Source: Echinostoma caproni (lineage: Eukaryota > Platyhelminthes > Trematoda > Plagiorchiida > Echinostomatidae). Taken from it: 64,000 nt of DNA. The notes beneath the pieces were generated by a model that worked only from the letters and a program-made list of their open reading frames with translations, did no database searches and had not been told where the DNA came from. The position numbers were made by a program, and so were the translations under genes. The DNA lies in assembly GCA_900618425.1 (NCBI GenBank), contig UZAN01039875.1, forward strand, positions 23,329 to 87,328. Reading direction: 5' to 3'. Of the stretch, positions 10,165 through 55,005 are shown one piece after another (position 1 is the first letter of the stretch; every line of letters begins with the position of its first letter).

Positions 10165-10440
10165 TGAGCTGAGTGCGATGATCGGAACAATCTGGCGAAG
10201 ATGAGTTGGGGGTTATGGCGTATGGGCCAAATAGAGAAATCAGTCTGATTAGCTCTCCCCCTCACCTCCCACACACTGGCGTTCTATTCGAGAGCTTTCT
10301 GGTTTGATCCCCGTTTGGGTCGATGGCTTCGCATCACTGGTGAAGTTTGAAGAGGACGAAACAACTGCACAGTGCTTTCTAGCTTTTTTGTTCACGCTTC
10401 ATTCGACAAACGTATTTCATCTCGTGACACTCCTAGAAAA
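10165..10440 (+). mobile_element. Hammerhead-SINE, degenerate copy
   Basis: It aligns by eye with the complete copies near 14.8 and 41.9 kb. A worn unit start is followed by a B-box-like GGTTTGATCCCC, then GTTTGGGTCGATGGCTTCGC. A mutated ribozyme follows at 10330-10375 (CTGGTGA for CTGATGA; GACGAAACA kept). The conserved downstream stretch AGTGCTTTCTAGC and CACGCTTCATTCGAC is present. The A box is not recognisable. It should be inactive. Confidence 0.65.
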
Positions 10441-11202
10441 TGCGCTCTATTCACCTAGACGAGGAAGCACTGAAGACAAGCTTGAGTTACAACCTTTGTT
10501 TTCAGGTTATTTCATTGGGGATTGCTTTCGCAAAGGGTAAATTAATCTATCCAATGATTAGGTATAAAACACTGTCTAACTACCCCGAGGAGAACCTTAC
10601 TTCACCCAATTCGCGTTTAACAAGACCTAGTAGATTCAACGTTGAGTGATAGATGGATAATTTGTTTATAGGAAATGACGTTCAAACGCAATATACCGTC
10701 ATGTGCCGTGTGTATTCTCATTTTTTTCGCAAACCGTGGAGGTCGGCCGACCCTCACTGCACATTTCAAAGGTAGCTCCGTCTACATCTGGGTCACTCAT
10801 TCTGTTTGTGTTATGGCTTCATTCACTCTCCTGGTGTTTCTCATTCATGCCCAGTCCGCATTTTGGCGTTCAGCCATTTTATGCTTTCTCATTTAGGCCG
10901 TCGGATGGAACATGAAAAAATCGACACATTTATCGTCGAGTTCTATATGCCGGTGGATTGAGATGAAGCATTATTTATCGAAACTATCACCAGCCCGTTC
11001 GCGATGAGCCTTTGCCGGCACACCGGAAAATTTTCAGTCGATTCAGTGTTCGTGTCGGTTTTTACCGTGCACTAATGATAACAAAGGAGAGATCCAGTAA
11101 TTCATGATATCAAGATCGAATAATGTAAACACACAGGTGTCTGCTTGTAATAGAAGAGTTGAATTCGAATGGGAATCGATAGTTGCTTTCATGTAGCTAA
11201 AC

Positions 11203-12123
11203 NNNNNNNNNNNNNNNNNNNNNNNNNNNNNNNNNNNNNNNNNNNNNNNNNNNNNNNNNNNNNNNNNNNNNNNNNNNNNNNNNNNNNNNNNNNNNNNNNN
11301 NNNNNNNNNNNNNNNNNNNNNNNNNNNNNNNNNNNNNNNNNNNNNNNNNNNNNNNNNNNNNNNNNNNNNNNNNNNNNNNNNNNNNNNNNNNNNNNNNNNN
11401 NNNNNNNNNNNNNNNNNNNNNNNNNNNNNNNNNNNNNNNNNNNNNNNNNNNNNNNNNNNNNNNNNNNNNNNNNNNNNNNNNNNNNNNNNNNNNNNNNNNN
11501 NNNNNNNNNNNNNNNNNNNNNNNNNNNNNNNNNNNNNNNNNNNNNNNNNNNNNNNNNNNNNNNNNNNNNNNNNNNNNNNNNNNNNNNNNNNNNNNNNNNN
11601 NNNNNNNNNNNNNNNNNNNNNNNNNNNNNNNNNNNNNNNNNNNNNNNNNNNNNNNNNNNNNNNNNNNNNNNNNNNNNNNNNNNNNNNNNNNNNNNNNNNN
11701 NNNNNNNNNNNNNNNNNNNNNNNNNNNNNNNNNNNNNNNNNNNNNNNNNNNNNNNNNNNNNNNNNNNNNNNNNNNNNNNNNNNNNNNNNNNNNNNNNNNN
11801 NNNNNNNNNNNNNNNNNNNNNNNNNNNNNNNNNNNNNNNNNNNNNNNNNNNNNNNNNNNNNNNNNNNNNNNNNNNNNNNNNNNNNNNNNNNNNNNNNNNN
11901 NNNNNNNNNNNNNNNNNNNNNNNNNNNNNNNNNNNNNNNNNNNNNNNNNNNNNNNNNNNNNNNNNNNNNNNNNNNNNNNNNNNNNNNNNNNNNNNNNNNN
12001 NNNNNNNNNNNNNNNNNNNNNNNNNNNNNNNNNNNNNNNNNNNNNNNNNNNNNNNNNNNNNNNNNNNNNNNNNNNNNNNNNNNNNNNNNNNNNNNNNNNN
12101 NNNNNNNNNNNNNNNNNNNNNNN
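11203..12123. other. Assembly gap (921 N)
   Basis: A continuous run of N. The open frames that cross it (335-377 aa) are artefacts. Confidence 1.
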
Positions 12124-12769
12124 GGGGGCATTACAATAGAAATGGACCAACCAACCGGAAACTAGTCGTCTTCTGTGACAGAGGGCGATGGAAATTAGTA
12201 GCAATTAAACATCGACTGAATACCCACTGGAATTTTGAATTTTATCATTTGATTAGCATACTGTATTCACAGAATGATAAGTTAGATAAGTGGAAAAGTT
12301 AGCTATGGGAGAATAAATGCACGAATCTGTTACTATTGCATAAAAAAATTCTGCTTGTAGCTCGCTTCTTTTGACCACATAGTTATGAATTCTGTGCATG
12401 TTGCCATTTGGGTCAGTAAACGAGGGGCATATGACTAATAATTTGTACGTAAGATTTAAAAAAACATTCACAGGGAAACTTTGCTACACGACCGAGATAT
12501 AACTCACTTCCTAATGTTCTCATTATTTTCCATCATTATCTCTGTGTTGGAATTATCATAAAGACGTGCTAACCCATGAAATGAAATATTCAGACGCATA
12601 TGAAAACTGAATAAATGTTTATATATCAAGACACCACAGGGTAAATCAGAACAGGACATTGAACTTGTATCGGGGAGGTTAAGAACTGCATCATCCCAAG
12701 AGAGGTTTGACAAATGGCTGCTCGTCTGAACAGTGATACCATCGTGCCCTGTACTAAGCAAACGAAGGG

Positions 12770-12895
12770 CGAACTGAAAAGTTTGTAAACACTTCACAGT
12801 GGTTTCGACCTGATTGGTGAGTAATGGGCAATAGACTTGCATTCTATCTGTGACATCCCGGATCTGATCCTCAGTTGGGTCGATTGAGTCGCACT
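12770..12895 (-). mobile_element. Hammerhead-SINE fragment with internal inversion
   Basis: On the minus strand, 12770-12821 carries the downstream ribozyme half and the following segment (AATCAGGTCGAAACCACTG, then CTTTTCAGTTCGCCC). Immediately after it, 12822-12890 reads on the plus strand as the worn tRNA-like head (GACTTGCATTC, then CAGTTGGGTCGATTGAGTCG). The 5' part is therefore inverted relative to the 3' part, with the break at the ribozyme. Confidence 0.6.
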
Positions 12896-14539
12896 GTAGA
12901 TCGACAGATCGACACAAATGTATAATGACTTTCAGGTTTTTAGTTCATTCTACGTTTGCTCTTTACATGATTAGATGAATTCGAATCCTCCAATTTTCTC
13001 ATAACGCAAATAAAGCCGTTTAACCCTGAGAGTTGGAAAAGTTTGAAAATACCCTACGGTAATGATACAGTTACGTATCTGAGCCATTTTCCATCGCTGG
13101 TATTGAATATATATTAGGAAATATTACAATGATCTGTTAAGTTGGTATTATGTAAGCCATTTTACAAACAAAATTTGAAAAAGTGTTGCTGGGCCTAATC
13201 AAATGATTTCATGCAACCAGGAGAAGTGAGAAGACTAGGTGAAGTTGATGGTTTTCGAACACAGTACCTCCGAATAACATTGAGTTAAGGTTAGATGCAA
13301 CGGATTCTAAGTTTTTAAGAATTCTGGCCAAATAATAAACAACAGAACGCTTCTAAGTCTCGGTGCGTGCTTCGGTGTTTTTAAAGCGAACAGGGGGAGT
13401 ACGAAGAAGAAAAGATGTTGTTCAACCTCACTTATGTTACTCCCACCCCTACCTACACAGGTACCATCTCACCGAAAGTGCCATTTATCAAGACTCGGAT
13501 TGGTTATCCCAGTAATCTTAGGTTTTAAAACCAACTTAAGAAACATTCCGTGAGGTCACTCTCGATCAAGATTGATTCAAAATATCCTAACAGCGAAGAA
13601 GTGTTACTAGGGCCCTGTGAAAGTTCTATTCGTGTCACATGAAAGATCTGTCCCAGCTCCTGTAAACCCAAACGAGGACAATGAAACTTCCCCCGATGGT
13701 TTCAAATGTAACTCTATAGGATTCCAGTATGATGGAGACAATAAACAAGTAGGACCCACTAGGGTACCAGTGAAAAAAAATAATCGGAATGAATGCTCCA
13801 TTAGCGAACACATAAGTGCGTTCTACAATTAGCGTTCACTTTTTGATTTACTCCCACCCGATTACTTTGAATACGATTTCTTTTTTGAAAATCCTCAGAA
13901 ATGCTAATCCGAATTCCCAAACTGAGTATTGGTACTATTGAAAGCTAAAAAAGAAAATCAGTTCAGAAGCAGTTCTGCGTTGAAATCCACAAGAATGAGG
14001 AGATGAGATTTTGCAGTTAACCAAGTCGAATGCATCTTCTGTTTTCTCTCTATAGTTGAAACAACCCGATGTAACTTATCTCATGTTTTCCCTACTCACA
14101 TCCCATCAAAATAAGTGAGCGTCTTTGCCAGAAAAAGGACCCTCTTCTCTTTACTATCTTTGTATAAATGAAATAAACTCACATACTACTTGGTGAGGTA
14201 TAATAACTTGAAATCATTAACATTATAAATTCCTTTGAAATTTATGCCCATGGATACTGAGCTATGTGATAACGTACACATTGTTGACCATGACGTTTTG
14301 GGTAAACAGATGAATCTTTGACACCAGTTATGAGCCACAGTAAAGTCAAAATTGTGATCTGTTTTGAAAATACAACTAAAATATGAGCTATGGGAACCAG
14401 AAAAGTCATCACATTAGGGGGTGTGTGAGGGGGGAGTAGGAACCGGAACAAAGAAATAATACATTTGTTGTTCAAGACAAACCAGGGGCTGAAAACGACA
14501 GTAAGTCCCTTCGGTGAACCATTTAGTATCATTTCGTCA

Positions 14540-14656
14540 AAATAAGTAACATGATATTTGAAAGGTGAAATTCCTAGTATATATGGCAAATGAAGCGTGA
14601 ACTAAAAACGTAGGGAGCACTGGACAGCTATTTGGACCTGGGTGGGTCTCCTCATC
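14540..14656 (-). mobile_element. Hammerhead-SINE fragment (ribozyme plus tail)
   Basis: Minus-strand copy that begins inside the CTGATGA core (GATGAGGAGACC) at 14656. It reads through CAGGTCCAAATAGCTGTC, CAGTGC and the tail CACGCTTCATTTGCCATATA. GAAA has become CAAA, so cleavage activity is unlikely. It abuts the plus-strand copy that starts at 14657, head against tail. Confidence 0.7.
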
Positions 14657-14845
14657 TTTGAAATTGAATAAAGTCCTCCATTACTCACTCAAAATAAGTA
14701 GTCAGGTTTTGTTTGTTTCTAACCGAGTCATAAACCCGGAAGCTGGTAATGAGATGAGTGAGGTCTGTCGCCTGCAACAAGCTCGCAGAGATGGGTTGTG
14801 CTATATCGTGTAAATGCGAAATGAAAACCGGTCTGATCAGCTGCC

Positions 14846-14918
14846 CGGTGGCTGAGTGTTAGCACGCTTGCGTTCTGTCCATGAGGTCCCGGTTCGATCC
14901 CCAGTTGGATCGATAGAT
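14846..14918 (+). promoter_or_regulatory. tRNA-like pol III promoter of the SINE
   Basis: A box TGGCTGAGTG and B box GGTTCGATCCC sit at tRNA-like spacing. There is no proper anticodon arm, so this is a promoter head and not a tRNA gene. Confidence 0.65.
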
Positions 14919-14920
14919 TC

Positions 14921-14965
14921 GCACTGCTGATGGAACCCAACCAGGTCGAAACAGCTGTCCAATGC
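14921..14965 (+). ncRNA. Hammerhead ribozyme (degenerate)
   Basis: Stem I GCACTG/CAATGC flanks the core. Stem II is ACC/GGT with loop CAACCA, followed by GAAA and the loopless stem III ACAG/CTGT with cleavage expected after GTC. The A to G change at the end of CTGATGA should abolish activity. Confidence 0.65.
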
Positions 14966-15055
14966 TTTCTAGCTTTTCATATCACGCTTCATTTGCCACA
15001 TACAAAACGAATTTCCCCTTTGAAATTGAATCAAATCCTCAATTACTCAAATAAC

Positions 15056-18000
15056 TTGATATTATAGAGTTGGGTGCTCTTTCTCTTGGATAATATGTAA
15101 AAAGTCTCATCTGGACTTGAACAGAGTGGTGCCGATGGAATGAGTTCCAATGAGACTTAATCAAAAGTGTCGACCGTCTGTCTGTGCTGAAGGGGAAATG
15201 CGTAGGTATGTAAAATGCAAAACTTGGATCATTCACAGTGCTGCTTCACTGTCGAAATGGCGAACGATGCGGTTGATTGCTGCGAATTTAGGAAGCCCGT
15301 TTGTTGGTTGTAAGAGCACATATCACTCACACACACAATAGCATCAGCACTCCTTGTAATACACCCGACCGTAACCAAAACGGGGATCTAACCTTCCCGC
15401 TTAAAATCGGTATAGCGAACGAATGTAAGTCACTGTTTTATTGTGAAGAAGTATGAAGTTAACAGTAAACAGATCCATAGCATTATCCTAAAGTAACATG
15501 AAATAATGGAGCCAAAACAAAACTCGTCTGTAGCAGTCAGTCATAAATGTTCAGCAGCTGTGTTATTCTATCAATCGTTGACGTAATCTGGTACTGGTCT
15601 TAGCTGGCAGAAATAAAATGCTTTTCTATTTGTGGTCTTATTACCTAGGAAAACGTGATGCAAAGCTCAGGCGAATTGCACCTAGGTGGTTGATCGTTGT
15701 AGCGTTTCGAAGTCCGTTAAAACATATACCGCAATCAAATGAGTAGAGAGAGTTTCAGCAGTTGGAGATAACGCAGGTTCTCAAAGTTGAAATTAACGCA
15801 CCTTGGACACATGACCGATCATTGCGGAAAACTACCGAATGAATAAATCTATCGAACAATAAAATCCTGAAGACCTTAAACTATAAATTGAACCTAGTTA
15901 AAAGCACTGCCTAACGTAACGTTCTCAATTAAATGAAACCGGGGAGTGGCGAAATCTGCGAGGTTTAACGAGGGTCAGTATTAATAGAGGATGAGATAAG
16001 TTTGGTAAAATCTTCGAGGAAACGTTTCGTGGTCTTTACAGCATTGAGCAAGCTACGGTGCTTAAAGCTGCATACTGAAAACATTCAGGGATGCATGGAA
16101 GTTTTGCGTTAAAGAAAACCACGGAAAATAGTAGAGGATCCGTAAAGCCCACGAAACAAAGTAAACAAGCCGAAACAAAGATTTAATATTGAGCCTAATT
16201 TATCCTCTGGCGGTGCTTATCATTAGGATCTAGATACGGTCAGTTTACGCCTGGTATGTATTGCGAATTCCCATAATACACCAACCCTGTAACTTGAATG
16301 TTATCCGTTTATCACCGACTTCCAGGTTCAATCTAATTCAATATTTACAGTTTTCAATAACCGTTCGAAGTTGGATTTAAAAAAATAGTTGAAAATATCC
16401 CTAAAAGCAACATTGACGACTGAGTTGTATTTCGATATCGTTTTCGTGACAAATTTAGAGGAACTGGCTCGACAATTTGTAATATACTGGGGACTGAGAG
16501 TAACGAACGAATGTGAGTTAAGGCTTTGCGCGGGCCGGCACTGTTGATGAGCTGGGGGTTCTCCGTAGAGAAGGTTAAATGATACTTTACGAGAATGAAA
16601 GAATGAAAACACCATGAACTCACAGTCCCAGTGAGACATAATGTGCACTCACTTCCAAACTGAATGGCAAGTTGCCAAGGGCCCCGAAAAATTGAAATAC
16701 ACCTTCCAAGTATTTTAGTGAACCATGTTATCTGTTCATTACCTCTATATTGAAGGGAGATGAATTTCGCCAGTTTTTGCCGGTTTGCTCAGAATTCTCA
16801 AATGCTATCATGGAACACACTGGATTAAGCGCACTGTCACAATCTAGTTATATTTTTCTGATTTGGGTACTGATACAATCAGAATATCAGTAATAAAGTA
16901 CCGTCCACTTCATGAAATCTGTTTCACAAAGAAGTCGCACAAACACACCGTCGAGTGGAACGCTAATCCCCGGGGTGGGGTTGTGGAGCAGGGAGAGAAA
17001 CAACTATTGTACCCAGTTCGATCACGTCAATTCCCAAAATGAAGACCGTTTTTTCTGCAGCTGGTTAGATTTTCGCAAACCATTGGTGGCGGTGCTAGTA
17101 GTACTGGATTCAATTGAACAGTTACGTGAAAATAATGACGCGGTCTTAACGTGCTAGTAATGGGTTTTACCCAGGAGCTCACTTTTGCACCCGGTCTCTT
17201 TGATCGGATATCGGGATGAAGAAAAACATTTTCGGTTTTATGCATCGGGAAGCTTGAATATTCTAGTGTTTAGGGTCGACTGAGTGGAACACAGGCGGTA
17301 ACTTTGATGGTGATCCCGCACCTTGAACATTTTCATTTGTGGGCTTTAATGTCTTCATCATCAAACTTGCTCCGCATTCAATTGCTTGCAATAAGCAATT
17401 CGAAAAGTCGTGTAAATGAATCCTAAAACCCTTTCGGTAATAGCAGTCGGCAATTAAGAAGCAAATTGCTTGGTGTATACAAGATTCTTTTAATTATAAT
17501 ACTGATAGAAGACCATCATGTATTCTAGGACAATCATGACTGATAAAGCATTATTTTCCTTTAACCATATACTCCATTGTTGCAAATTAACTAATCAATA
17601 AGAATCGCGTCAAATGTTTGGAAGAGATTTCCTTTGGGTTTTTGTGCTGTTTAACTACCGGATGATTCACCCAGTAAAATTTATGCAGAATCTAAGAGCT
17701 TTTAAATCCAGCACAATTTACATTAAATCATTGATTATTCATCGAAAAATTCGGCCAGGTTTGGAACATCCAATCGTATAATACTCTGAACTTCAATTCG
17801 GAATGACAAATTACCGCATTTTGTCAAATCATGACGCCAGACGTAGACAAACATGGGTTTCCCGAGACATCATATCCATTTCTTACCAGTTACATCCTTT
17901 CGGGACTCATGAAGTTGCAAAAAAAGCCGAAGGGCAAATGATTTCAATCAGACATCTGTAGAGCGGGAGTGAAAGACGGAAAAATCCACATCTTTCGCGT

Positions 18001-21649: not shown

Positions 21650-21815
21650 TATTCAGATTTAGGGCGGTATTGGCCAATTGGTTAGGTCACCAACTAATGA
21701 TTGGTGACTCCCGGGTTCGAAACGCTCCCTTCTTCCCAGGCAGCCTTTGTATGGCCGCGGCCCTCCTTCCTGAATGTTGTTTGTACAGTTGTATATTCAA
21801 AAAAGAAAGTAAAAG
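21650..21815 (+). mobile_element. tRNA-derived SINE, second family (copy 1)
   Basis: The tRNA-like head has A box TGGCCAATTGG (near 21669) and B box GGGTTCGAAACGC (near 21712). It is followed by a body with CCCAGGCAGCCTTTGTATGG and CCGCGGCCCTCCTTCCTGAA, and a tail TGTATATTCAAAAAAG. The same order recurs on the minus strand at 32808-32995. No hammerhead motif is present. Confidence 0.75.
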
Positions 21816-21830
21816 GACACAGGCAGACAT

Positions 21831-23150
21831 AGCGTCTGTGTTCAAACACCAGCAATCAGAACAGTTGCTTGAAGGCTTTGTCGTTTCTGTAAACCATATC
21901 ATAGATACCGCTGCAAAAAACAATCGGCGATCCGCTCTCATCAGTATATCGCCTGCCTCGCACATTTGTGTCTCAGTCCTGTTCACATTATTCACTGGTT
22001 CAATCGTAAATGTCCGTCAGTTTCCATGATCAAAATCCCCCATTTCTTACCCTATATTTCTAGGGAATATGACAGGAGACATTCCTCTCACGGTAATCAA
22101 CAAGGTTAGTTAGTTCTAAACCTCACTGTTACACTAGAACAGTTATTTTTGATCGAATTTGAAAATAATCATTTCTTCAAAGATGTTTTCCTTTCATTTC
22201 CTACAGAAAATAAAGAAATTCCGTAATCTCGAGGACTTACGGCTCGCTCGTCTTCAGATTAGAAAACATTCCCAAACCCTGAGCCTTGAAGAGGCTACCT
22301 ACATGGGCCTCTAATAAAGTAGATGAGGTCTTAAGTGGATGACAGCGAAGCTGTCTGGCAGCAGATCTCGATGGCGGTGGCAAGATTGAAACCTCGGAAT
22401 TTAGGGTTCCAAGCATACCAATGAGAACGCAACATAGCGCTTGACCAGGTGTCTAAACCCAATGATCAATGGGTAAACCGATGAACAATCTACCTTCAAG
22501 TGTTTCGGAATGTGTACATGCGCAGATCTTTAGGTGTTCCATAAACCGCTCTTAAACGCATCAATGCCTCGTGGATACCCGTACATAAAAATTCAATCTG
22601 AGTTGGATTCTCTGATCTGCTTTTTCTTATGAAAGAGGTTTCACAAACACCATTGTAAAAAAGTGATTCACGAAATCATTTTGAAGTGTGCAGCATAACT
22701 CATCAGGCTCCATCTTCGAGACGGTGTATTGCACTATCACATAAAAGAAGTTGGTAGTGGGGTTCTGTAGGAAACGACCCGAAACACGCTAAAGCAATGT
22801 AATCAAGGCGATACCTGGGGCTGGGTAAATAAAGTCAGATGAAACCCAAAATTATTCGGGGTAATAATCCACTGAAAAAGTAGATCCACACTGAATGTTT
22901 GCTGTTGTTGCTTGATCACTGTTTTTAGTTCCACAGAAGTGCAAAATAAGTCTACAGTTGTATTTCTTCTCTACGTAAACGGTGGGCAGTAGTACACTGT
23001 ATCTCCCCCAGGAAGGCATTAACCTTATCTACTCCCGTGTAAAATGAAAATAAAATGAAATTTAAATGCGGTGTAAATGTTTGTGGTAATCGACAAAGAG
23101 CACTATATAACTGATTCGTCCTGTTTGGGACTTGTCAGCAGTGCATAATT
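21831..23150. other. No confident gene
   Basis: Short frames only. Some stretches (22230-22450) have the look of old repeat sequence, but no family can be named. Confidence 0.35.
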
Positions 23151-23159
23151 TTTTGTGTC

Positions 23160-23232
23160 CCTGTCAGGATCCGAACCGCGAACCTTCGGCTCGGGACGTT
23201 CAACCCTTACCGCCGAGATACACGGTCGATGG
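23160..23232 (-). mobile_element. tRNA-like SINE head or tRNA pseudogene
   Basis: The minus strand reads CGGCGGTAAGGGTTGAACG, then GAAGGTTCGCGGTTCGGATC and CTGACAGG, with a B-box-like GGTTCGGATCC. The 3' part resembles 45722-45795. No foldable complete tRNA with an anticodon arm is evident. Confidence 0.4.
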
Positions 23233-27964: not shown

Positions 27965-28117
27965 GAGCATCAGATATTCCACGTGGGTAATGGAGGATTT
28001 GATTTAAAGAGAAAATTTGTCGTGTATATGTCAAATGAAGCGCGAACTGAAAAGTTACGAAGCACTGGACAGCTGTTTTGACCTGGTTGGGTCTCATGGA
28101 TTCGCACTGCTGATGAG
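27965..28117 (-). mobile_element. Hammerhead-SINE fragment with inverted 5' piece
   Basis: Minus-strand copy from ATGAGACCCAACCAGGTC at 28097, through CAGCTGTC, CAGTGC and CGCGCTTCATTTGACATATA, to a tail ending TCCTCCATTACCCACGTGG. GAAA has become AAAA, which should inactivate the ribozyme. At 28098-28117 the plus strand reads GGATTCGCACTGCTGATGAG, the upstream half of the ribozyme in opposite orientation. Confidence 0.7.
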
Positions 28118-28424
28118 AGAACCAATTAACAATGGCCCTACTGGAATCACAGAAGTGAATCTTCTGGTGATAAGCTAAAATTCTTTTTTGAGCTACTCGG
28201 TGAAGGCCGATACCAGTAGGGCCTAGGTGCATAGATCCTTTGATTTGTAGATCCCCAAATAATTCATAATTTTCTCTATCAATAAAATAATATAAATAAT
28301 AACAAACTGGGAAAATATAAAATTCATCATATGTGCTCTGGAATGAATGGAAACTTGTAAATAATAGAATTCACGCGAACAGTTATACGAGCTGTCAGTG
28401 TATAAGTGTATAACTGGTGAGAGT

Positions 28425-28560
28425 TTTACCACCTAACCCGAAGGCCCGTGGTTCAAGTGTCAGGCACAGAAACAGTACGCACTGCTAAAGAGGCTGTAAC
28501 AGAACGAAATAGCCGTCCAGCGTTCTTGGTCGGTCATAACATATTCTACTTCTGTTGCAA
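28425..28560 (+). mobile_element. Hammerhead-SINE, divergent subfamily
   Basis: A B-box-like GTGGTTCAAGTGTCAGG is followed by CAGAAACAGTACGCACTGCT. A worn ribozyme core spans 28475-28523, with AACGAAATAGCCGTCCAGCG kept. CGCACTG before the core still partly pairs with CAGCG after the expected cleavage site. CTGATGA is lost (CTGCTAA), so it is inactive. The leader resembles the copy at 54.6 kb more than the other copies. Confidence 0.55.
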
Positions 28561-30330
28561 CTAAAATCAATTTCACGAGTGGGGAGGAAATGACCTAACA
28601 CGAAGTGAAGCTCACAACTTCATCAGATTGGGATCGGAAAAGGTGCCACTTGCCTGTGGAAATCTATCAGCTTATATAAGCATAGTCAAAAAATTTATTC
28701 CTCCCGATAATTACGTCATCCTAGCAACTCTAGAGGTAGAGCAATTAAAAAGGAAATTTATTACACTAGGTAGTGGAGGAGATGTATTACTGAAGATGTT
28801 TCCGATTGTTGTGGTGCATTTCCGTCGAAATGTACTTAATTCAACCAACATTGATGTTTCGTCAGGCCCTAATCAACATACTTCAGATCCGACTCAGTTA
28901 AGTTATTTCGTGGTGAGAGGTCTCCGAGTGACTAAGCGCACCATTACGTATACTAGACTACATGTCATTTTCATATATTGCAGTCACAAGCCCCGTTTAT
29001 GATGTCATATGACAGTCCTGGACAATTCTGCGAATTGTAGTGATCTTTTTCTTGAGAAAGAAGCAACAATGTCAAATAGATGTAGATGTACTTTGAGATT
29101 TTGAGTGCATTCCATTGGTACATTCCAGTAATTCTGACCTTGACGATTTTATCGATTGTCTCATACAGGTTTTCATATCCCCGATTCAAGACACTGTAGC
29201 TCTCTCCCACATCAATCAGTATACTGAATTTGATAGAACAACGGTTCTCCCAAACAGTCGATTTCGTGTAACAGTAGCACTTTCATCAAACAGTGATTCA
29301 GTAAGCCAGCTCGCATTCTTATGCTTGAGTTGTGAAAAGTTCAATGGTGTCGATGGGATTCGAACTTACACATGGACGCTGCCTACGCTTTTGTGTAGCG
29401 CACGCTCTACCAGCTGAGCTACGAGACCACACGGATAGTATTGATTTTTTCACTTTCGAATCACCTATCCAACTTTTAGAGACATGTGGTTCGAATCTCA
29501 CCGTGGTTACTGAACTATTCATGATTTCAATATAATACTTCACTCTGCTAAACAACCGTTTCACCAACCAGAATTCTGTTGTGTATTATCACTAACTCGA
29601 TTGGTGAGATTTTCACCGAAAGCAATAAATTGTTAGACTAAAAGTCACCAGAAAAATCTTTTACTATTCAACCGATTACAGGGAATTGTTTTTGGTCACT
29701 TCTGCTGATTTATCTTGGAAACATTTGGGGCATCTAACTATGTTGTGTCAGGACGAGCCCATTGGATTTCACCGGCACGAAGAGAAACACATGGCCCGTA
29801 TAAATTCGCACATGTATTTGCACTTTTTAGAGCTACACCCCGCTAAATGTATTTAACATCTGATGAAGTTTTCATGGGAAGGTCAACTAAAAGAACAGTA
29901 AACAGTTGTTGCTTTATTTTTGCTACTGGAACTGTCCGGTTGAGAATAAAAGGCATTCGCAAGAAGCTTATCACATTGATAGGACTTAATCTGACTGTGC
30001 ATGCATTGAAAGGTTTAGCCCATTTTAAGTCGACGGTACCTTGCTCTTCACTTGGTATCGATAACCGGTCTTGGTACATTGGCTAACTTATTCTCGTTAA
30101 GATATCAATAGTTGTGCTAATGCTCAAATCTTTGAATTAAAGTAATAGAGTAACTTGCAGTCTATTAAATTTACCAAAAAATACAATCGAGGTGTGCTTA
30201 ACTGATCTTCGGACTTATTTCGAGTGCAATTTTAGATAACGTCATTTTAGGCTATTCACGTTTATTAAAGTAACGTTAGCAATGCTAATAAGCAGATGAA
30301 TGTTGGTGATTTGATTTTTCCCTCAAATTG
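28561..30330. other. No confident gene apart from the tRNA-like locus
   Basis: A 124-codon plus frame at 28628-29002 has no recognisable domain and no splice context. A second B-box-like GTGGTTCGAATCTCACC lies near 29488 without a clear A box. Confidence 0.35.
29346..29430 (-). mobile_element. tRNA-derived SINE head / tRNA pseudogene
   Basis: The minus strand shows GTAGCTCAGCTGGTAGAGCG (D arm and A box) and AAGTTCGAATCCCATCGACA (T loop and B box). The acceptor stem GGTCTCG/CGACACC has one mismatch. The anticodon loop has C where U33 is required, the T stem has two mismatches and the variable region is long. It is therefore not a functional tRNA gene. It could be a free-standing pseudogene or the head of a SINE. 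Confidence 0.6.
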
Positions 30331-37984: not shown

Positions 37985-38213
37985 AATGTATCCCTCTTTG
38001 CGAGCTTGTTGCAGGCCACAAACCTCGCTTATCTCAGCACTAACCTCCGGGGTTATGACTCGGTTGGAAACATTCACTGATTATTTCATGTGAGTAATGG
38101 AGGATTTGGTTCAATTTCAAAGGGGAAATTCGTCGTGTATATGTAAAATGAAGTGTTAACTGAAAAGCTAGAATACACTGGATAGCTGTTTCGACCTGGT
38201 TGGGTCTCATCAG
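37985..38213 (-). mobile_element. Hammerhead-SINE running into the start of the next unit
   Basis: Reading the minus strand from 38213: the ribozyme, tail TTAACACTTCATTTTACATA, then GAAATTGAACCAAATCC and CTCCATTACTCACATG. It continues without a break through CAACCGAGTCATAAC into GCCTGCAACAAGCTCGCAAA, which is the start of a unit in the copy at 14.7 kb. The copy therefore spans the junction of two tandem units and starts exactly at the ribozyme core. Confidence 0.75.
38176..38213 (-). ncRNA. Hammerhead ribozyme with intact catalytic core
   Basis: Minus strand: CTGATGA, stem II GACC/GGTC with loop CAACCA, GAAA, a short stem III (ACAG/CTAT), then the ATC cleavage triplet followed by CAGTGT. All invariant core bases (CTGATGA and GAAA) are present. 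Stem I is lost because the copy begins at the core, so this copy alone cannot fold completely. Confidence 0.7.
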
Positions 38214-39289
38214 TAACATTAATCACCTTTGATTGTCAATCACATCAGAACTGATCGCAAAGCGGTACAATCTAGCAAGCCTCTGATCTCCCTCAGGGAG
38301 CCGAAGTCTCACTAGAGAAACCCAATTTTTTCGGCCTAAACTGGTTAATATATCTGTTTGCATGTAATCGAACATATTACTGCAAATCAATAAAAGTAAT
38401 CCGGTGGCATGCATTTATTTTGGATGTTCTCTGAAGTGTCCACAAGAAAAACCAGTTCCTCCGAGAAATTTAAGCACTTATTTTGCTTTCGCCTAACGCG
38501 ATAAGCTTAATACAGGACAACCATTCTCGCTGACTGCTTGTAACACACCACCTAAATTTTGGAAACTAGCAAGCAATTAAATTATTTTAAAATACCTACA
38601 ATGAGAGTCACTTGGTGATTCTGTGTACGGACGGTTAATACCGTTTTCGCGATTCTCGACGCACATTGGGCATGCGAAATCATTTTTCCTCCGTCAATTA
38701 GCAAGAATAACTGACAAAAAATCAGTTGACTTTACGTATGATCACGGAATCAGTGTCATGAGCTGCCCTCCATAACGCATATTAAGGTATTTAGACGTAA
38801 GTAACATGTTCGCAGCTCTATTCTCTGACAAGTTCTCGCTAAAACAAAATTCTACACCACTATTCCCTCTGAACTCTACAAAGGGGTGTCAAAAGTCGTA
38901 CATCTTATCCAAAACCTTTAGTAGAACTGGTGTTTGAATCAATCGTTTGCTGCAATGTGCTATAAAAATATTATTCAACGATTTGGTAATCATTTTTTAC
39001 TTCTGAAAAATTGAAATGCTCGTGCACGGTCAACGTGTTTGTCCGTAGGCAACAGTGTACACCTAGTTAGGTCATCCGGCTTGGTGGGAAGAATGACAGT
39101 GCATGTCCCACCACTCCCTCACCGCCGCACACCTCGTTCAACCCCGGGCAGAAATCCAGCGTTTATGGGTTATTATTCTGACGATCTGATACCTGGGGCT
39201 GGAACTGAGCTTCATATTACAAATACATAATATAACCATCATCTATTATTCTGTTCAGTGATGCGGTATACGTGTGAATTTGGAAAGCA
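38214..39289. other. No confident gene
   Basis: Only short frames. A B-box-like CGTTCAACCCC near 39132 has no well-spaced A box. Confidence 0.35.
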
Positions 39290-41106
39290 GTGGAGATTAA
39301 TAATGTTGCATGGAGAACTCCTCGGGTACAATTGAAGTATTCCATACTGTTCACTTGTTCACAAATAACAATTGTTGGTCTCGGAAACGGTGAAACCGTT
39401 CTTGCGAAAAAACTAAACTGTAACAGCCCTAAATCACAAAGTGGAATAGAGAAAGTTGTAAAATTCTTTCGCCTGAGCGTAATCAACGGACGAGCAAGAA
39501 TAACGAAACAACATATCAATCCAGACCGGATCCTGGACGCTGCGGCTTTATGGATTATCGAAGGAGCATAAACCAGACCTTCCGATACGACCTATAGTTG
39601 ATATGTAAAGTTAGCTATACCACGCTATCGCCCAACGGATCGCAGAACTTCTCGAACCAGTACACCGTAAGATTGCCAAACATAGCCTGAAGGGTAGGTT
39701 TAGCTTTTTAGGGAAGATATAAAACCGCAATGTTCTCAACAAAACTATGATGTCATTCGCTGTGGAATCCTTGTTTACAAACGTACCGTTGATCGAGACA
39801 GATGATCGCATATGTGGATTCTTAGTTTCCAGCAGAAGTCACGTCGAAATTACGCCAAATAAGTTGAAAGAGCTGATTTCCAGATGTACATTTCACATAG
39901 AGTTTTTTTATAATGACCAGATCTACAGACAAATCGACCGGGTTAGTCATGGGGTCTCCACTAGGTCCCATAATGGCAGATATTTGCTTACCAAACTGGA
40001 GAACGAAAATTTGAAAGAGACAACAGGACAGTTTGACTTATTTTGCAGATACTTGAATGATAACTTTATCGTTTGTGATTCTCACATCAGCCACACACGT
40101 CTTCTCGACGAATTCAACAATCGTCATCCGGCTATTCGTTTCACCTCTGAGTTAGAGAAGAGCGAACAACTACCCTTTTTAGATGTGTTATTAGCAAGGT
40201 GAGACAACTGTACCATCCAAAGAAGCGTTTTTCGCAAAACAACGTGGGTTGGACAGTATACGCATTTTTGTAGCTTTATCCCTCTGAAATACAAATGCAA
40301 CCTGGTGTTTATCATACCGAGCACGTGCAATTTGCAGTGTTGAAATATTTCACTCCGAGATACTTTTTATTCGTAGCGTACTTCGGTCAGGTGGTTATTC
40401 AGAAACGTTTATTGATAAAAATATACGATTGAAGACCAATACAAGCAAAAGCTCGACCGCTCCTCGAAAGAACGTTTTCCTTACCGTACCGTTTAAGGGC
40501 AATGATGCCCTGGAGCTTCTCAAAGGACTTTTGTCCAAAGTGATCTCTAAAACGTTTCCTGCAGCTTAACCGTATATCCTCACAACTACTCGGGCCTTGA
40601 TGTCCCCGCGAACAAAAGATAAGATGCCTCATCTGCTTAAGTCCTTCGTGCACTTGTAGTGTGCGATACATTGGACTAGGCGATTATCAAAGCGTATTGC
40701 TGAGCACTGTCCTGCTGGCCTTGAAAAAGGAACGATTAGGTGCATTCGCAGCTCGGTTCTCGGTCATTTCGTTAATACCTGGTATGTTGTGAATAAACTG
40801 GATGCATTCAAAAATATTCAAACTATACCCCGGAGATATTCTAAGGGAATAGGAAGGCCGTTTTTAACCACGGCCGAGGCGATTGCTATTCGTATTTTCA
40901 ATCCAGATCTATGTAAGCAAAAAAGCTGGTTCAGACACGGTTGCTGCCCTGATCTGGACAGCGGATTCTTCGTGTATAAAACAGAGCATCAACTCTCTTT
41001 CCCAATTGCTCCCCTCATCCAGTATCATCAACCACAATCTGAACAACTAGTTATTTTATTTGTGCCTCCATTGTCCCTTCCCGATTCCATCACTTGCTAT
41101 GCATGA
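39290..41106 (+). mobile_element. Penelope-like element with GIY-YIG endonuclease remnant
   Basis: Retroelement remnant, 5' truncated. Penelope-type reverse transcriptase motifs appear in order: LYGLSKEHKPDLPIRPIVD (39546-39605), SFAVESLFTNVPL (about 39752), VMGSPLGPIMADI (frame-shifted, about 39950), RYLNDNF near 40050 where YVDD is expected, and HPAIRFTSELEKSEQLPFLD near 40125. Beyond a worn linker, CSVRYIG (about 40656) and RLSKRIAEHCPAGLEKG (from 40681) mark the GIY-YIG nuclease. The C-terminal end carries AEAIAIRIFNPDLCKQK. Several frameshifts and stops, plus the D to N change in the catalytic motif, make it inactive. No hammerhead motif was seen in its immediate flanks, although Penelope-like elements can carry them. 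Confidence 0.85.
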
Positions 41107-41820: not shown

Positions 41821-41890
41821 GCTCATGTTTAATTTCAAAGGTGAATTCGTCGTGCATTTAGCGAATGAAGCGTGATCTGAAAAGCTGGAG

Positions 41891-41920
41891 GGCTGTTTCG
41901 ACCTAGTTGGGCCTCATCAG
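41891..41920 (-). ncRNA. Hammerhead ribozyme core (cleavage site deleted)
   Basis: Minus strand: CTGATGA, stem II GGCC/GGTC (one G-U pair) with loop CAACTA, GAAA, CAGC. The downstream GTC and stem I strand are missing, so self-cleavage in cis is not expected. Confidence 0.7.
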
Positions 41921-41939
41921 CTGTTCGGGTCCATCGACC

Positions 41940-42008
41940 CAACTGGGGATCGAACCCAGGACCTCACAGGCAGAACGCAAGCATGCTACCCACTCGGTCA
42001 CCGGGCAG
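41940..42008 (-). promoter_or_regulatory. tRNA-like pol III promoter of the SINE
   Basis: A box TGACCGAGTGG (rc of 41990-42000) and B box GGGTTCGATCCCC (rc of about 41945-41957) are both near consensus. The insert between them does not fold as an anticodon arm. Confidence 0.7.
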
Positions 42009-42110
42009 CTGATCAGACCGCTTTTCATTTTTCGTTTACACGACACGGCATAACCCATCTTTAGGAGCTTGTTGCGGGCTACAGACCTCGATCATCTCAG
42101 CACAATATGT

Positions 42111-49329: not shown

Positions 49330-49575
49330 TTAGTTCTAATGTAAACCACTTTTAAAATAAAATAAAGCAGATGAGGATTTAGTTGCATTGCACGAGCAGA
49401 TTCATCGAACAAAACGCAAAGGAAACGTATTGGAAGGCTCGGAGGCACTGGGCACGGGTTTCTACCTGATTGTTTCTCGGTAGCATGGGAAATCCAGTGA
49501 TTGAGAGAGGGAAATCTCAGATGCAGTGCAACCATACTACTCACTTGACCACTGGGCACCTGGGAAGGAAGCTTT
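49330..49575 (-). mobile_element. Hammerhead-SINE, old degenerate copy
   Basis: The minus-strand head GGTGCCCAGTGGTCAAGTG (A box) is followed by a worn B-box region and a decayed ribozyme (49441-49478) that keeps AATCAGGTAGAAACCCGTG and CCCAGTGCCTCCGAG. CTGATGA is gone. The tail reads AACTAAATCCTCATCTGC. Confidence 0.55.
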
Positions 49576-50108
49576 ACTTTAATATTGCGCATTGCGAACA
49601 ACTCCTCACAACAGCAGTTTGGTATTCATTGTTAGTGTTCAAACGAAAGATCGGTTGGTCCGTTTTCGTTTCAGATCCGATTTATTATCGTGCCATTCTG
49701 TTGCTCGCCGAGGTTTTCAAACGATCACCTGTGTCACGACCTTAGTTGTTAACCTTTCTGAAAACCCAGTAGCCGATTAGAATGTGCGGAGCATCGCGTG
49801 GCGATTTACGTATCTTAAAAGTGCGCACGGTGAACCCAACCAGGAACGGTAATGCTTCTAACTGTGAACAGGATTGGTCGGGCAGATCTCAGCTCAGTGA
49901 TCATACGAGACCTTGATTACGAGACTGAGCTCAAATTCCTCACTTTTTGATTGATCTTTAGCTTTTCTATTCTCATGCATTAAACTTTTGTCTTATTATG
50001 GAAAAAGAATAAGTTGGAATACATATTCAATTTTTACGACCTTCAAGGTTACACTTCCGTGTACTGGTTTTAGTTACAATCATATTCCCAGAACAAGGCT
50101 TTCAAGCC

Positions 50109-50114: not shown

Positions 50115-50119
50115 GTAAT

Positions 50120-50340: not shown

Positions 50341-50487
50341 CTGAAACATTAAGCAAAACTGATCAAACAGCTGCAGTACACATTTGACGAACAGGCGGAT
50401 GTCGCAGCGACTTTAAAAGTGTTTTACAGTAAATGTGGAACGGTAGATTTGCGGATGATTGAGATAATGACAACGATGACCTTGTTG

Positions 50488-53400
50488 ACCAAAACCAAAA
50501 CCAAAAAGGAACTGAAAACAAGTCCATCATTCTTCATTGTATTGCGAGTAGCACTACAGACAGATGGTGAATAGTCATTCCAGACATCAGTACCAGTCGA
50601 ACAACTCTAGTTTCAGTTCAGTTCAGTTTGAACAACAATCAAACATACTCTTTCGTGTGCCGGTTTTGGTTGCTGTCTTTTGATTGTCCATTTGGATGAA
50701 TAGGAGAAGAACAGAAAAGTCGAAGGTGGAGTCGAAGAGAAAATTGAGAACTCCAGTAAACTATGGCTGCCAAAAAATTGAGAAAATGGAAGAACGCCAC
50801 TGTTTACGACACCCAGCCATATCATTCGGTGTCTCTAACCATCGGGTACGATCTTCTCGTGGTCCCCAGCCAGGAAGCCTAACGGGACCTATGTGACCCA
50901 GTACCCTAGTCAGGGTTTTCATACCCTCGTGCCAGGTCCTATCTTGGACACTCTTGACTTTCTTCCACCCACTACTTGCCTCGGCGAACATCGCTTGCCG
51001 TGGCAACCTATTTGGTGACATATGTAACAAATGCCCCAACCAACATAATCTATGGAGGTTCACCATTTGCTCTAGTGGGCGACCGCGGATACCCAAAACT
51101 CTGCACCTAACCTCAGCATTGTTCGTCCGGCTGCTCCACCAGATTCGTGCAATGCTGCGTAGACACCAGTGTTCAAACACCGAAAGTCTGTCTTTGTCCC
51201 GCTTTCTTAATGCCCAAGTTTGTGCACCATATAGCAGAAATGGCCGAACTGCTGCGGCATGCACTCAGCACTTTACAGACAACCGGATGTTGCGATGGTG
51301 CCACAGATGTCTCAAGTTAGCAAATACCAACCGAGCCCTTTGTATGCGAGCAGACACTTCATCCGAGAAACGTCCACCGGGTGAGATGTAACTGCCTAAA
51401 TAACAAAACTTATCCACTTGCTCTATTACTTCTTCAGTTGGAGTGAGGCTGGGTGCTGGACCGACCCAGTCTTGTAGTAACATTTTACACTTTGAGGGTG
51501 CAAAACGCATACCGAACATGGCTACACTGATATTCAAGCTGTCCAAATAAGCTTGCAACTTACCTGCATCTTCACTTAGTAGCACAATGTCGTCTGCATG
51601 TTCCATATCAGACAGTCTGCCGCCTGGAGGTAAATCGATGCCGCTATTCTCGCACGAGGGTAGGGCTGTTTCCACAATCAAATCTATGACAAAGTTGAAT
51701 ANCTTTCTGTAGTGAACTCGAGGGAAAACGTGCCGTAAGCTCGGACTCGACTTCAGCAGAGGTGATGGGTCTACAAAAGGAATGTCGATTCTCCAGAATT
51801 TGACGGAGTGAAGTTGTGGTCAAAACAACCTCGACCAGGTCTGAAACCAGCCTGGTTCTCACGCATGCACTCTCCACGTGCGGCAGACAATCGATGGAAT
51901 ATGATACCGGCGAGAAGTTTAGAGGCAATGTTGATCAAACTAATTCCTCTATGGTTTTCACAGGAGGATTTGCCGCCTTTCTTGTAAATGCGTATGATGA
52001 CCGATTCACACCATTCAGCTGGATCCTCTTCCCTCTCCAAAACCAAGGCTGAACCTCCATCCTTAAAACCGATGGGGACAGCCCGTTGGGGCCGGAAGAC
52101 TTATGCCTTCAGAGGTAACTTATTTCTCGGGTAACCTCCATTTCAGATGGAGGACTGACATCAGCTGGCAGTATTTGCCCAGTCAAAGTGGAGGGTGACA
52201 GATCAGATGTCGATGGGGGCCAGTTGACCTGAGCCTTGAAATGTTCAGCCCATCGATCAAGACGGCGTTGCTGATCGTGTATCAGTGTGCCATCAGACTC
52301 TTTAATTATCTCACTTAAGCCTACTTTCCTGGGGCCTGTATTCAAAATTAGACGGAAAAATTGCAACTATTGCTGATAACCATAGCCTTCTCCATCTTTC
52401 TACATTTCTCTACCCACCACTTCTCTCGGTCATTCCTCAGACTCTTTATGAGCTGGCGTTTTAATGGATTTGCTCGCTGTATCATATGTGGTATCCGGAG
52501 GCGGGGTTCTGCGGGCGTCCAGCAGGGCAGCCGAGGTTGCCGAGATCCATCGTTTGGATTTTGAACCAACGCCAGGATCCGACCTTGTTTTTAATGATAT
52601 CTGCATTGCTTACTTGATTTGCTTCCGATTATCATTAAGTCCTTCGACTGGTGGCTGAACTGACAGGCGATTGGAGAGCTCCGCTTTGAAGACCGATTTG
52701 CAGCCATCACGGATGCTGTATCGTGGGTATTCGTTGTCGGTGACTTTTCTGCCGTTGTTTGCCAGGCGTAGGGAGAATTTGGCTCGTAACAAGGCGTGAT
52801 CTGTATCCACAGCTGTTGACCAGTAAGAGCGGCAGCCGTGAATTGATCCCCTCCAGCGGTAACTGATGGCGATGTGGTCAATCTGGGTCCAGCGTTGTGA
52901 AGAAGTTGGTGGTTTCCATGTAAGACGGTGACGTTTCTTGTGTGAGAAGTTCGTGTTTGACAAGAACAACCATGGTCCGCGCAGAGTTGAATTAGGCGAT
53001 CTCCGTTGTTCGTCCGGNCCCCGGCGACTACTATGATGTCCGTTGATCAAAAACTTTGGAGTAATTGAGAAAAATCCTCGTAGAATTCATCCTTGATTTC
53101 AGGTGCATATACCGATAAGACGAATAAGCATCGACGCTTCATCCTGTAGCTGTTGATTCGTGCTGAACCGTTGAGGCCTACAGCGCACAGTCGGCTACTG
53201 ACCGGAATACAGTCAAGAAGCGAGCGCTCCGCTTCGGCACTTGGCGCAATCCGGATACCAACAACACCGCGAACTACGGACGCCGAATCGTCTAACACAC
53301 GAAGGGTGAAGTGCGAGGTTGGATCAGGAGAACGCAGGGACATAATGGAAGTGGGGTCTTGTATGCGTGTTTCGGAGACACAAAATACATCTAAATTGAA

Positions 53401-54260
53401 AGTTTCAAGGGTTCTAGCTAAGGTACCTTGTTGACTGATCTGATAGTGTGCGAACATTGAATGCGGCTAAGTGAAAAGGGGATTTTGGCTTTGAAAAGCC
53501 TATAACTTTTGATTATCTGGCCTTGCTTGTAAAACACTGATTGATATTCGATGGGTGGTGTAAACAAGAGGCATCTGGGATTATTTGGGATTGATAAGAA
53601 CTAGACATGGGAAAGATGGTTTTCCAAATGGGTTCCTAAACCTTTAGGGCACGACATACTTTGCGGCAGCCCACACCGACGAAGGGGTTTATCTTTGGAA
53701 ACCATAAATGGAGCCTTCGACTCAAAAGTCTGACCTACAAGGCGTAAATCCGACGAGGGAGCGTGAACGAAGCACTCGTGTGGTAGCTTCTAGAGAACTG
53801 TCACGCAAGGCCTTTCGGTTAGGTTTGTTGTTCGCTGATGCGTTGATTGTCGGTCCGCTTTCCGAGATCGGCCCTTAGCCTCATGCACCCAATGAGACAA
53901 GCGGAACGTGGACGGGACAGCACCTTATTGGATGGGGGATGCCCAGCTTGGGCGGGCGGTAGCTGTCCAATGAAGTGCGAAGACTTCTCCCACCGTCGAG
54001 AGAAAGCCCCAAGTACCCCTCTCCTACGTCCATCTAGTGGATTTTTTCGACCGGTAAACTGCCCCTCGCCGTGTTTATTTGCTTGAGTGACCTCTCCAGG
54101 GGCGGATATAGATAAGAGGAAGCCAGGAGGTGCCCAAGCAGCTGGCTTTGTGAGACTGAACTTTGTCTGGCCTCTACCTGTTGACCTTTCNTGGATCTAC
54201 GGCCGTGAAAAGCCATCCTGTGTAGCTCGTAGAGACATGGAGGCACGCAAACCATCACAC
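50488..54260 (-). mobile_element. RTE-type LINE (endonuclease + reverse transcriptase), defective
   Basis: Non-LTR element of the RTE type common in trematodes. Minus-strand order: leader (about 54260-53460), then APE endonuclease with FCVSETRIQDPTS and QIDHIAISYRWRG plus DTDHALLRAKF (53457-52610). After a linker with WWVEKCRKMEKA comes reverse transcriptase with VIIRIYKKGGKSSCENHRG, ENQAGFRPGRGCFDH and motif C as HADD (52046-51265). The C-terminal region has RPFLLYGAQTWALR and HRLCWLGHLL (51264-50761). The 3' end is probably the ACCAAA-type repeat at 50488-50507. Frames are broken several times. Single Ns at 51702, 53018 and 54191 coincide with missing conserved blocks, including reverse transcriptase motif A and the GDFN motif. 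The element cannot be autonomous as written. The exact 5' end is uncertain. Confidence 0.88.
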
Positions 54261-54599
54261 CAGGCCAAGGTGCAGTCTCTTCGTGATAGGAACAACTGTA
54301 TTACCGGGTTAGAGTTGTACCTGGACAATCTGAAAACTAGATGCTTGAGAGCACAGATTAAAAAGCCCGTTAACGCCTTACCAGGTTTCGCATTTAACAA
54401 ACAGCCATTAAAATAGTTTTCCACTGGAGGGAAAATTGTCCAGACTGACCACGTTTATCCGACTTCGATAACGACTATTACAAAATAAAAGCATATTGAA
54501 AACACAAAGGCATCATGTCAACATTCAAGCACCACCTGTATACTTCCCGTGAGCTTATTCATGCCCATCGCGTTTAATACAGACCAGGCTTTTATTTGA

Positions 54600-55005
54600 T
54601 CATGCAATTGATAGGGCGTGAGGACAGATTCGAACAGCTGTTTCATCCTTGTTTGGACTCATCAGCAGTGCGTATTGTGTTTTGGTATCTACTGGGACCT
54701 GAACAGTGAATCTTCCGTTTGTTATATAATACACAGTTGTGTGATAAACAGCGGTGGGGTGGGCCTCATAGTCCAGAAGACCTTACGCTCAGTGATAGAA
54801 CCTGGTAAACTAAGCCCCCAGACTTGGAATTGAGAACCACCTGAGGCCCCACTAGGTTAGACGTGGTATTGAACTGCACGAAAGCGAAGCTACCTAACAC
54901 TAACAATGGGTGGCGGTGGTGGAGCTCAAACCTTGGGTCACAGGATCCGAAGCACTCTAGTGACAGTGAATAAACCACTGCACCACCGCCGACAATGCCA
55001 GATAC
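54600..55005 (-). mobile_element. Hammerhead-SINE, second subfamily
   Basis: The minus-strand tRNA-like head is near 54915-55000 (GCGGTGGTGCAGTGG; AAGGTTTGAGCTCC). It is followed by a body unlike the other copies and a hammerhead at 54631-54671. A candidate tail includes CAATTGCATGATC. The leader before the ribozyme (CAATACGCACTGCTGATG) resembles that at 28475. The link between head and ribozyme is inferred from orientation and distance. Confidence 0.55.
54631..54671 (-). ncRNA. Hammerhead ribozyme with intact core, second subfamily
   Basis: Minus strand: GCACTG, CTGATGA, stem II GTCC/GGAT (one G-U pair) with loop AAACAA, GAAA, stem III ACAG/CTGT, cleavage triplet TTC. All invariant core bases are present. 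Stem I no longer pairs (GAATCTG follows where CAGTGC is expected). Confidence 0.7.

Follow-up and report, generated by a model that had tools for sequence, protein, structure and literature searches.

A 64,000-nucleotide stretch of the genome of the trematode Echinostoma caproni, a species classified in Echinostomata, was analysed (assembly GCA_900618425.1, contig UZAN01039875.1, positions 23,329 to 87,328 of the forward strand; hereafter the window, to which all positions refer). It contains dispersed copies of a short interspersed nuclear element (SINE) that carries a type I hammerhead ribozyme, or its remains, downstream of a transfer RNA-like (tRNA-like) region with boxes for RNA polymerase III (pol III). 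The census for the window is 11 loci with 14 hammerhead remnants, in two related families. An initial annotation had described a single family of about ten copies, and all ten of the places it named hold a copy or remnant when searched by nhmmer with the doubled consensus unit and with queries from three copies. However, loci at 23.1 and 34.0-34.2 kb had been overlooked, and some of its separate copies are the arms of one inverted pair (14.5 with 14.7 kb, two at 12.8 kb, two at 28.0-28.1 kb, with 34.0-34.2 kb as an added pair). Nor is there only one family of this hammerhead SINE, as nhmmer places the copy at 28.45 kb and, tentatively, that at 54.6 kb in a second.

A search of the window by nhmmer with the doubled unit of the best copy gave 15 rows. 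For the first family, family I, a majority consensus of 364 bp was refined on its own nhmmer matches, with copy A as its seed. When doubled, this consensus retrieves 18 rows, 11 of them with E <= 1.2e-6 and seed copy A at the top, whereas the best E among 10 dinucleotide-shuffled versions of the window, made without its Ns, is 0.2. Support from Rfam is independent of these consensus searches. The type I hammerhead model RF00163 exceeds its gathering score at one site (14921-14965, + strand, 35.5 bits versus 34). All seven of its rows with E up to 5 are on copies (14.9, 38.2, 23.1, 54.6, 14.6, 28.1 and 41.9 kb), the six further rows scoring below gathering. A model trained here, R1, retrieves its own 12 training copies and is not independent evidence; after these it reports 12787-12831 (E 0.02, arm L) and 28102-28134 (E 0.087, arm E').

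Further arms were sought in the 300-bp flanks of the 11 loci, where three rows were listed, none above the maximum of its own 100 shuffles. The motif ACAGCTGT, at no more than one mismatch, occurs 42 times in the window with 23.5 expected; it is enriched, not diagnostic. DNA patterns gave no match in a viral contig collection (family I tRNA-like region, full hammerhead, and hammerhead cores of both families) or in prokaryote genome contigs (full hammerhead, family II core), collections that are little informative here, being viral and prokaryotic. An assembly gap (Ns) from 11203 to about 12130 separates the 10.2-kb copy from those at 12.8 kb and could conceal further copies.

Family I has eight loci. 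Its consensus unit (364 bp, 47.8% GC) consists of a tail (unit 1-32), a linker (33-92), a head (93-186, about 94 bp), the tRNA-like region (about 187-262, with the A box at 196 and the B box at 238), the hammerhead (268-312, predicted cleavage after 306) and a post-hammerhead part (313-364). The consensus hammerhead is built from a 6-bp stem I (GCACTG/CAGTGC), CUGAUGA, stem II (GACC/GGUC), GAAA, the loopless palindrome ACAGCUGU and GUC. All the hammerhead parts first described from the letters (CTGATGA, a short stem II, GAAA, a loopless palindromic stem III, GTC and GCACTG/CAGTGC) are thus in the consensus, stems I and II pair in it, and the covariance-model check that had been proposed finds the family, once above gathering. 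Complete copies with a pol III head had also been claimed; the boxes exist, but the unit is covered in full only by the copy at 14.66-15.05 kb, which has a mutated core (CUGAUGG).

For the promoter region, the A-box motif TRGYNNARNNG and the B-box motif GGTTCRANNCY were used for comparison. The two consensus boxes are 42 nt apart; an internal pol III promoter with A and B boxes is a mark of Sm-alpha/Sj-alpha SINEs. The consensus A box, TGGCTGAGTGG, has no mismatch to its motif, while that of copy A, TGGCTGAGTGT (14849-14859, +), has one, as judged by eye; the B box of copy A, GGTTCGATCCC (14891-14901, +), has none. Copies A and B carry a perfect B box; that of D has a single mismatch, and those of G and H are decayed. 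The A-box motif is short and low in information, with equal or better matches elsewhere in four of five copies (A, B, D, G). On copy B the Rfam tRNA model scores 16.5 bits (41935-41999), below its gathering score of 29, and it reports no row for copy A. It is fair to call this region tRNA-like; that it is tRNA-derived is unproven, and no isotype is assignable. The consensus contains TTTT at unit 53 and 321. A lone tRNA-like gene stands elsewhere, at 29344-29429 (- strand; Rfam tRNA 34.1 bits; Cys by ARAGORN, anticodon aca), its middle disturbed; it may represent a pseudogene or else head a different SINE.

Copy A (14656-15049, +; nhmmer E = 3.4e-106, as the seed) is the only copy covering a whole unit. 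It is 394 bp long versus the 364-bp unit, spans unit 1-396 and runs through tail (14656-14687), linker, head, tRNA-like region, hammerhead and tail, with the tail at both ends at a repeat spacing of 362. Its hammerhead (14921-14965, +) has lost A9 (core CUGAUGG), and cleavage is predicted after 14959. Head-to-head with copy A lies arm F (14559-14660, -), from the hammerhead core to the tail (nhmmer 14660-14555, E = 2.1e-17; Rfam 22.6 bits, below gathering). In a second pair, arm G (12808-12996, +; E = 3.6e-17) holds the tRNA-like region, hammerhead remains and tail, and arm L (12747-12817, -; E = 7e-07 by nhmmer) faces it head-to-head. Arm E (27975-28102, -; nhmmer 28111-27975, E = 1.8e-22) extends from ATGAGA in the hammerhead to the tail (unit 277-406), and beside it is the inverted 21-nt piece E' (28097-28117, +), found by eye as an exact match to consensus 261-281 with one occurrence in the window. 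The fourth pair is formed by arm I (33969-34093, -; E = 5.6e-11), with the post-hammerhead part, tail and linker (unit 318-444) and without a hammerhead, and arm J (34151-34231, +; E = 1.2e-06), with hammerhead remains, the two lying head-to-head 57 bp apart.

Four copies of family I are single. Copy B (41826-42105, -; E = 2.1e-57) has head, tRNA-like region, tail and a hammerhead that keeps its core, the 3' strand of stem I being damaged. Copy C (37990-38217, -; E = 2e-48; Rfam 31.8 bits, below the gathering score of 34) begins at the hammerhead core, continues over tail and linker and reaches the head of the next unit (unit 274-504). In copy D (10162-10411, +; E = 8.4e-30) the head is followed by a decayed tRNA-like region and hammerhead remains with the core CUGGUGA. 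Copy H (49353-49613, -; E = 5.8e-17) is strongly decayed, with 69% identity to the consensus (160/233). By eye, B and D seemed to extend upstream into the tail; this was dropped, as 95 and 30 of 200 shuffled flanks, respectively, score equally high.

The copies form two related families, in which different heads are joined to a common ribozyme module. Family II is represented by copy M (23057-23217, -), with another tRNA-like head and stem II GUCC/GGAC (E = 1.4e-10 with N as query; Rfam 24.8 bits, below gathering), and copy N (28413-28567, +), whose stem II is broken (E = 2.3e-10 with M as query). The M and N queries reach family I only at 1.5e-4 and 9.9e-4, versus 2.3e-10 and 1.4e-10 mutually. 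Copy K (54625-54719, -; E = 2.3e-05 with M as query) has an intact core (CUGAUGA, GAAA, GUU), stem II GUCC/GGAU and three of six stem I pairs. Its assignment to family II is tentative: as a query it finds M at 2.5e-06 and copy A of family I at 1.9e-05, little apart, and the N query ranks A above K. When M, N, K, A and B are aligned, the B-box region and the hammerhead are common and the remainder aligns poorly. The second pair of stem II is AU in five and UA in two of the 12 aligned copies. The Rfam hammerhead consensus, which we take to be schistosome-like, also has a loopless self-complementary stem III (GAAACGCGCGUC), the same layout as in the elements here, and its stem II and loop are one base apart from those of copy M.

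All core residues and the NUH triplet are retained in three of the 12 aligned copies (B, C and K), where stem I keeps 3, 5 and 3 of 6 pairs and stem III 1, 1 and 2 of 2. The stem I pairing of C uses flanking DNA, as this copy begins at the core. An intact core (CUGANGA, GAA, A15.1, NUH) together with stems I-III is found in none of the 12 copies, only in the consensus. None of the 12 is predicted to be fully active, and by the core-residue rule as applied to schistosome hammerheads (PMC8490949) copy A, despite passing the Rfam cut-off, is expected to be dead because of its core CUGAUGG. Stem pairs are kept at 70.6% in the aligned copies, against 21-34% when the partners are slid by 1-3 columns. 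In the window the copies are dead or close to it, and their drift is neutral.

The fold of the consensus was calculated with an energy model without tertiary contacts. For the monomer, a non-hammerhead fold at -15.2 kcal/mol, in which the core CUG pairs with the CAG of the palindrome, is preferred to the hammerhead at -9.2 to -10.2 kcal/mol. For two molecules the minimum is a double hammerhead at -34.3 kcal/mol. The observed palindrome is among the three of 64 possible ones with a monomer penalty of at least 5.0 kcal/mol, the median being 2.5.

The 12 family I arms include four head-to-head pairs (F/A, L/G, E/E', I/J) and no tail-to-tail or tandem pair, and none of 200000 random placements gives four head-to-head pairs. 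Pair F/A is flanked by a candidate target-site duplication, AAGTAACATGATATT on the left (14544-14558) and AAATAACTTGATATT on the right (15049-15063), matching at 13 of 15 positions (p 0.002 uncorrected, from 2932 random flank pairs; about 3% given 15 intervals). At the other 14 intervals no target duplication was seen. The tails of both F/A arms point outward, as expected if both target strands prime. The inner junctions vary among the pairs (275|1, 284|191, 277|261 and 319|256 in unit coordinates), and descent from one inverted master is therefore disfavoured. The pairs suggest twin priming, a process known from L1. The arms of F/A and of L/G overlap in unit coordinates, so a single twin-priming event could have produced them only from an RNA longer than one unit or from two RNAs. 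For E/E' and I/J, twin priming on an RNA of at most one unit would suffice.

Copies A and C point the same way, as A exceeds the unit and C crosses a unit boundary, which suggests multimeric or circular templates. The linker is common to A and C and its first part recurs in I, so the joining of tail to head is ancestral. Four arm 5' ends cluster at the hammerhead core (274, 275, 277, 284), a hint only (P 0.046 in a post hoc scan test).

As a whole these observations are, in our judgement, probably best explained by two families of old non-autonomous retrotransposons of the Sm-alpha or metazoan-retrozyme kind, mobilised from multimeric RNA. Either the internal pol III promoter or read-through would have given rise to transcripts that hold at least two source units. 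As a monomer the hammerhead would be weak, having a stem III without a loop and a core CUG that can pair with the CAG of stem III, and it could become active once two units share an 8-bp stem III. It might then trim multimers to units, which a host ligase may circularise. A reverse transcriptase of the long interspersed nuclear element (LINE) type or of the Penelope type would copy the element RNAs at a nicked target, and priming from both target strands would leave head-to-head pairs.

Several observations weigh against this explanation. There is no covariation, as letters re-dealt among the 12 aligned copies give 70.5% pairs; kept pairs equal re-dealt pairs, and the pairing is therefore inherited from the consensus. 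The hammerhead is no better conserved than its surroundings (0.80 versus 0.78-0.88 in other parts, copy A excluded). The TTTT at unit 321 begins 15 nt after the cleavage site, so pol III could terminate before the tail; most copies reach past it, and their templates would therefore come from read-through or another polymerase. No tandem array of the unit is present in the window. All 12 arm 5' ends are more than 10 nt away from the cleavage site, the nearest being at +12, and linear self-cleaved monomers are therefore not visible as templates. The circular consensus unit folds no more stably than 60 shuffles (z -0.26), unlike rod-like retrozymes. The 60-bp distance limit for pairs was fixed after the pairs had been seen, and the target duplication is convincing at one of 15 intervals, with ends chosen after the repeat was seen by eye.

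The folding evidence is also less specific than it looks. The Rfam consensus monomer is likewise disfavoured, at -12.8 versus -8.8 kcal/mol, a penalty of 4.0 against 5.0 here, and we have dropped the self-blocked monomer as a special trait on that account. The Rfam dimer, however, has its minimum at -34.9, which is not the double hammerhead (-33.7). With the present unit a double hammerhead is obtained for 47 of the 64 possible palindromes, so the result of cofolding is largely generic. The earlier suggestion that the very short stem III implies cleavage as a dimer or in tandem transcripts is thus favoured by the energies, with weakened support. A weak helix III can make a hammerhead depend on dimers, yet for most invertebrate hammerheads cleavage as monomers has been reported (PMC7761336).

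If the ribozyme is a mere passenger, the element would be an ordinary SINE with a tRNA head, covering unit 90-406 (about 315 bp), A and C would result from side-by-side insertions or read-through, and the inverted pairs would be nested insertions. Copies B and D both begin at unit 90-93, the attempt to extend them upstream does not rise above shuffles, six of 11 arms end at unit 374-407, and the lack of extra conservation in the hammerhead is what such an element would show. Against it, the tail-head junction is ancestral, being common to A and C with tail-to-linker again in I, four head-to-head pairs are not expected from random insertion, and F/A share one target duplication; we consider it possible, on balance rather unlikely. 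A similar degree of doubt applies to a strict retrozyme without long terminal repeats (LTRs), with a ligated one-unit circular RNA as its template, copied more than once around. This would account for the about 30 nt by which copy A exceeds one unit, for the crossing of the junction in C and for 5' ends scattered round the unit, and the unit length and GC content lie within the published range (PMC7229834). The absent tandem array and the unremarkable circular fold speak against such a circle, which also does not predict that six of 11 arms end in the tail.

Two further explanations appear highly improbable. The hammerheads could belong to Penelope-like elements, as minimal type I motifs acting as dimers, instead of to a SINE; a short stem III and dimer use are common traits (PMC7761336), and a reverse transcriptase-like fragment (39723-40202) is situated 1.6 kb from copy B. 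However, copies A and B have the tRNA-like head and a perfect B box, copy B lies on the opposite strand from that fragment with a head and tail of its own, and in these two copies, which were examined for this, the hammerhead is not inside terminal repeats of an element coding for reverse transcriptase. The remaining candidate, held to be just as improbable, is a foldback DNA element with the hammerhead-to-tail part as terminal inverted repeats. Pair F/A does resemble one, with inverted arms of about 100 bp and a single target duplication, but the inner junction is different at all four pairs and four loci are single-armed.

The fragment at 39723-41106 (+) is one that we take to be a Penelope-like reverse transcriptase; it has itself no match to a Pfam family, while among the eight relatives listed for its first frame six carry PF00078 (RVT_1) and four PF26215. 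Penelope-type enzymes have been proposed as movers of retrozymes (PMC7229834). Broken reading frames at 50761-53466 (-) include one that is RVT_1-like (E 3.4e-4, below cut-off), and frames at 60255-62815 (+) resemble them by eye; both are possible partner enzymes. For the reverse transcriptase piece at 51268-51819, the two best relatives among the 69 proteins listed are from Echinostoma caproni (73 and 77% identity), followed by Schistosoma (about 60%), and a Fasciola hepatica match has 67% identity over 45% of the query. On these relatives alone the host would most likely be a trematode and probably no schistosome.

The other neighbours include a probable lipase exon at 57115-57519 (-), with 14 relatives, one named match (a spider lipase, 42%) and 73% identity to another protein. 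A hairpin at 57956-58079, whose 52-nt arms are 88% complementary and separated by 20 nt, looks like a foldback of the miniature inverted-repeat transposable element type, and has a weak Rfam match to MIR6140 on both strands, far below cut-off. An inverted repeat at 4131-4435, whose arms measure 91 nt (85%) and 30 nt (80%) and whose inner arms lie 78 nt apart, is perhaps another foldback element. Two inverted copies of another repeat, at 21727-21804 (89%/45 nt) and 32824-32905 (82%/44 nt), are by eye unrelated to the hammerhead families.

Among known systems, the elements resemble Sm-alpha and Sj-alpha of Schistosoma in kind, judging by their layout; descent from Sm-alpha is not claimed. Both have A and B boxes for pol III, a hammerhead of type I downstream of them and dense dispersal (PMC2770079, PMC2576457). 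The parallel to Sm-alpha in another trematode, drawn at the outset, is supported by the combination of a tRNA-like pol III head and a type I hammerhead, by dispersed copies that look retrotransposed and by reverse transcriptase relatives that are first Echinostoma caproni and then Schistosoma. Different here are the stem III palindrome ACAGCUGU, the unit of 364 bp versus 335 bp in the SMalpha-like element W36.2_W001 (PMC8490949), and the head of about 94 bp that family I has upstream of its tRNA-like part. The schistosome elements are described as SINE-like; hammerhead candidates number over 38,000 in S. mansoni and over 5,000 in S. japonicum (PMC2770079). The class is marked by thousands of dispersed copies, to be set beside 11 loci in 64 kb here, and by a head derived from a tRNA, which in S. 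mansoni is tRNA-Gln. A report of a hammerhead SINE in trematodes beyond schistosomes is not among the literature matches listed, a weak negative because subscription literature is thinly covered.

The schistosome repeat has been presented as a putative metazoan retrozyme (PMC4918200), and where non-LTR retrozymes are defined, platyhelminths are named among the hosts in general terms (PMC7229834). The elements share several defining features of metazoan retrozymes: a type I hammerhead, a small unit (150-450 bp; here 364), a GC content below 50% (here 47.8%) and a target duplication of more than 4 bp (here 15 bp, 13 matching, at F/A) (PMC7229834). Copies A and C also give hints of multimeric or circular templates. 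They differ from the retrozymes described in having pol III-type boxes, no tandem array in the window and a circular fold no better than shuffles. The W-elements W25.2/W36.2 of S. mansoni are also trematode repeats with type I hammerheads, some with a very short stem III, and their copies with core mutations are inactive in vitro; these are described as satellite-like, while the copies here are dispersed and inverted (PMC8490949). Minimal hammerheads associated with Penelope elements share the short stem III and the action as dimers, but are located in pseudo-LTRs of coding elements (PMC7761336). The window holds the decayed copies of a hammerhead SINE or retrozyme that is Sm-alpha-like, falls into two families and is uncommon in its share of head-to-head pairs and in its unit-crossing copies.

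A bolder version of the multimeric explanation holds that the ribozyme works only when two units meet, that retrotransposition proceeds from multimeric or circular RNA, and that twin priming is routine, since half of the family I loci here are head-to-head pairs. We regard this version as quite unlikely. If it were true, the ribozyme would be a sensor of unit number, the head-to-head pairs would be fossils that record template multimerisation, and retrozyme-type replication would be readable from DNA alone. The finding probably extends the schistosome-type hammerhead SINE to another trematode lineage. It also bears on how animal hammerhead repeats are mobilised, since copies that cross the unit boundary, arms inverted in pairs and one target duplication for both arms of F/A together point to target-primed copying of multimeric RNA.

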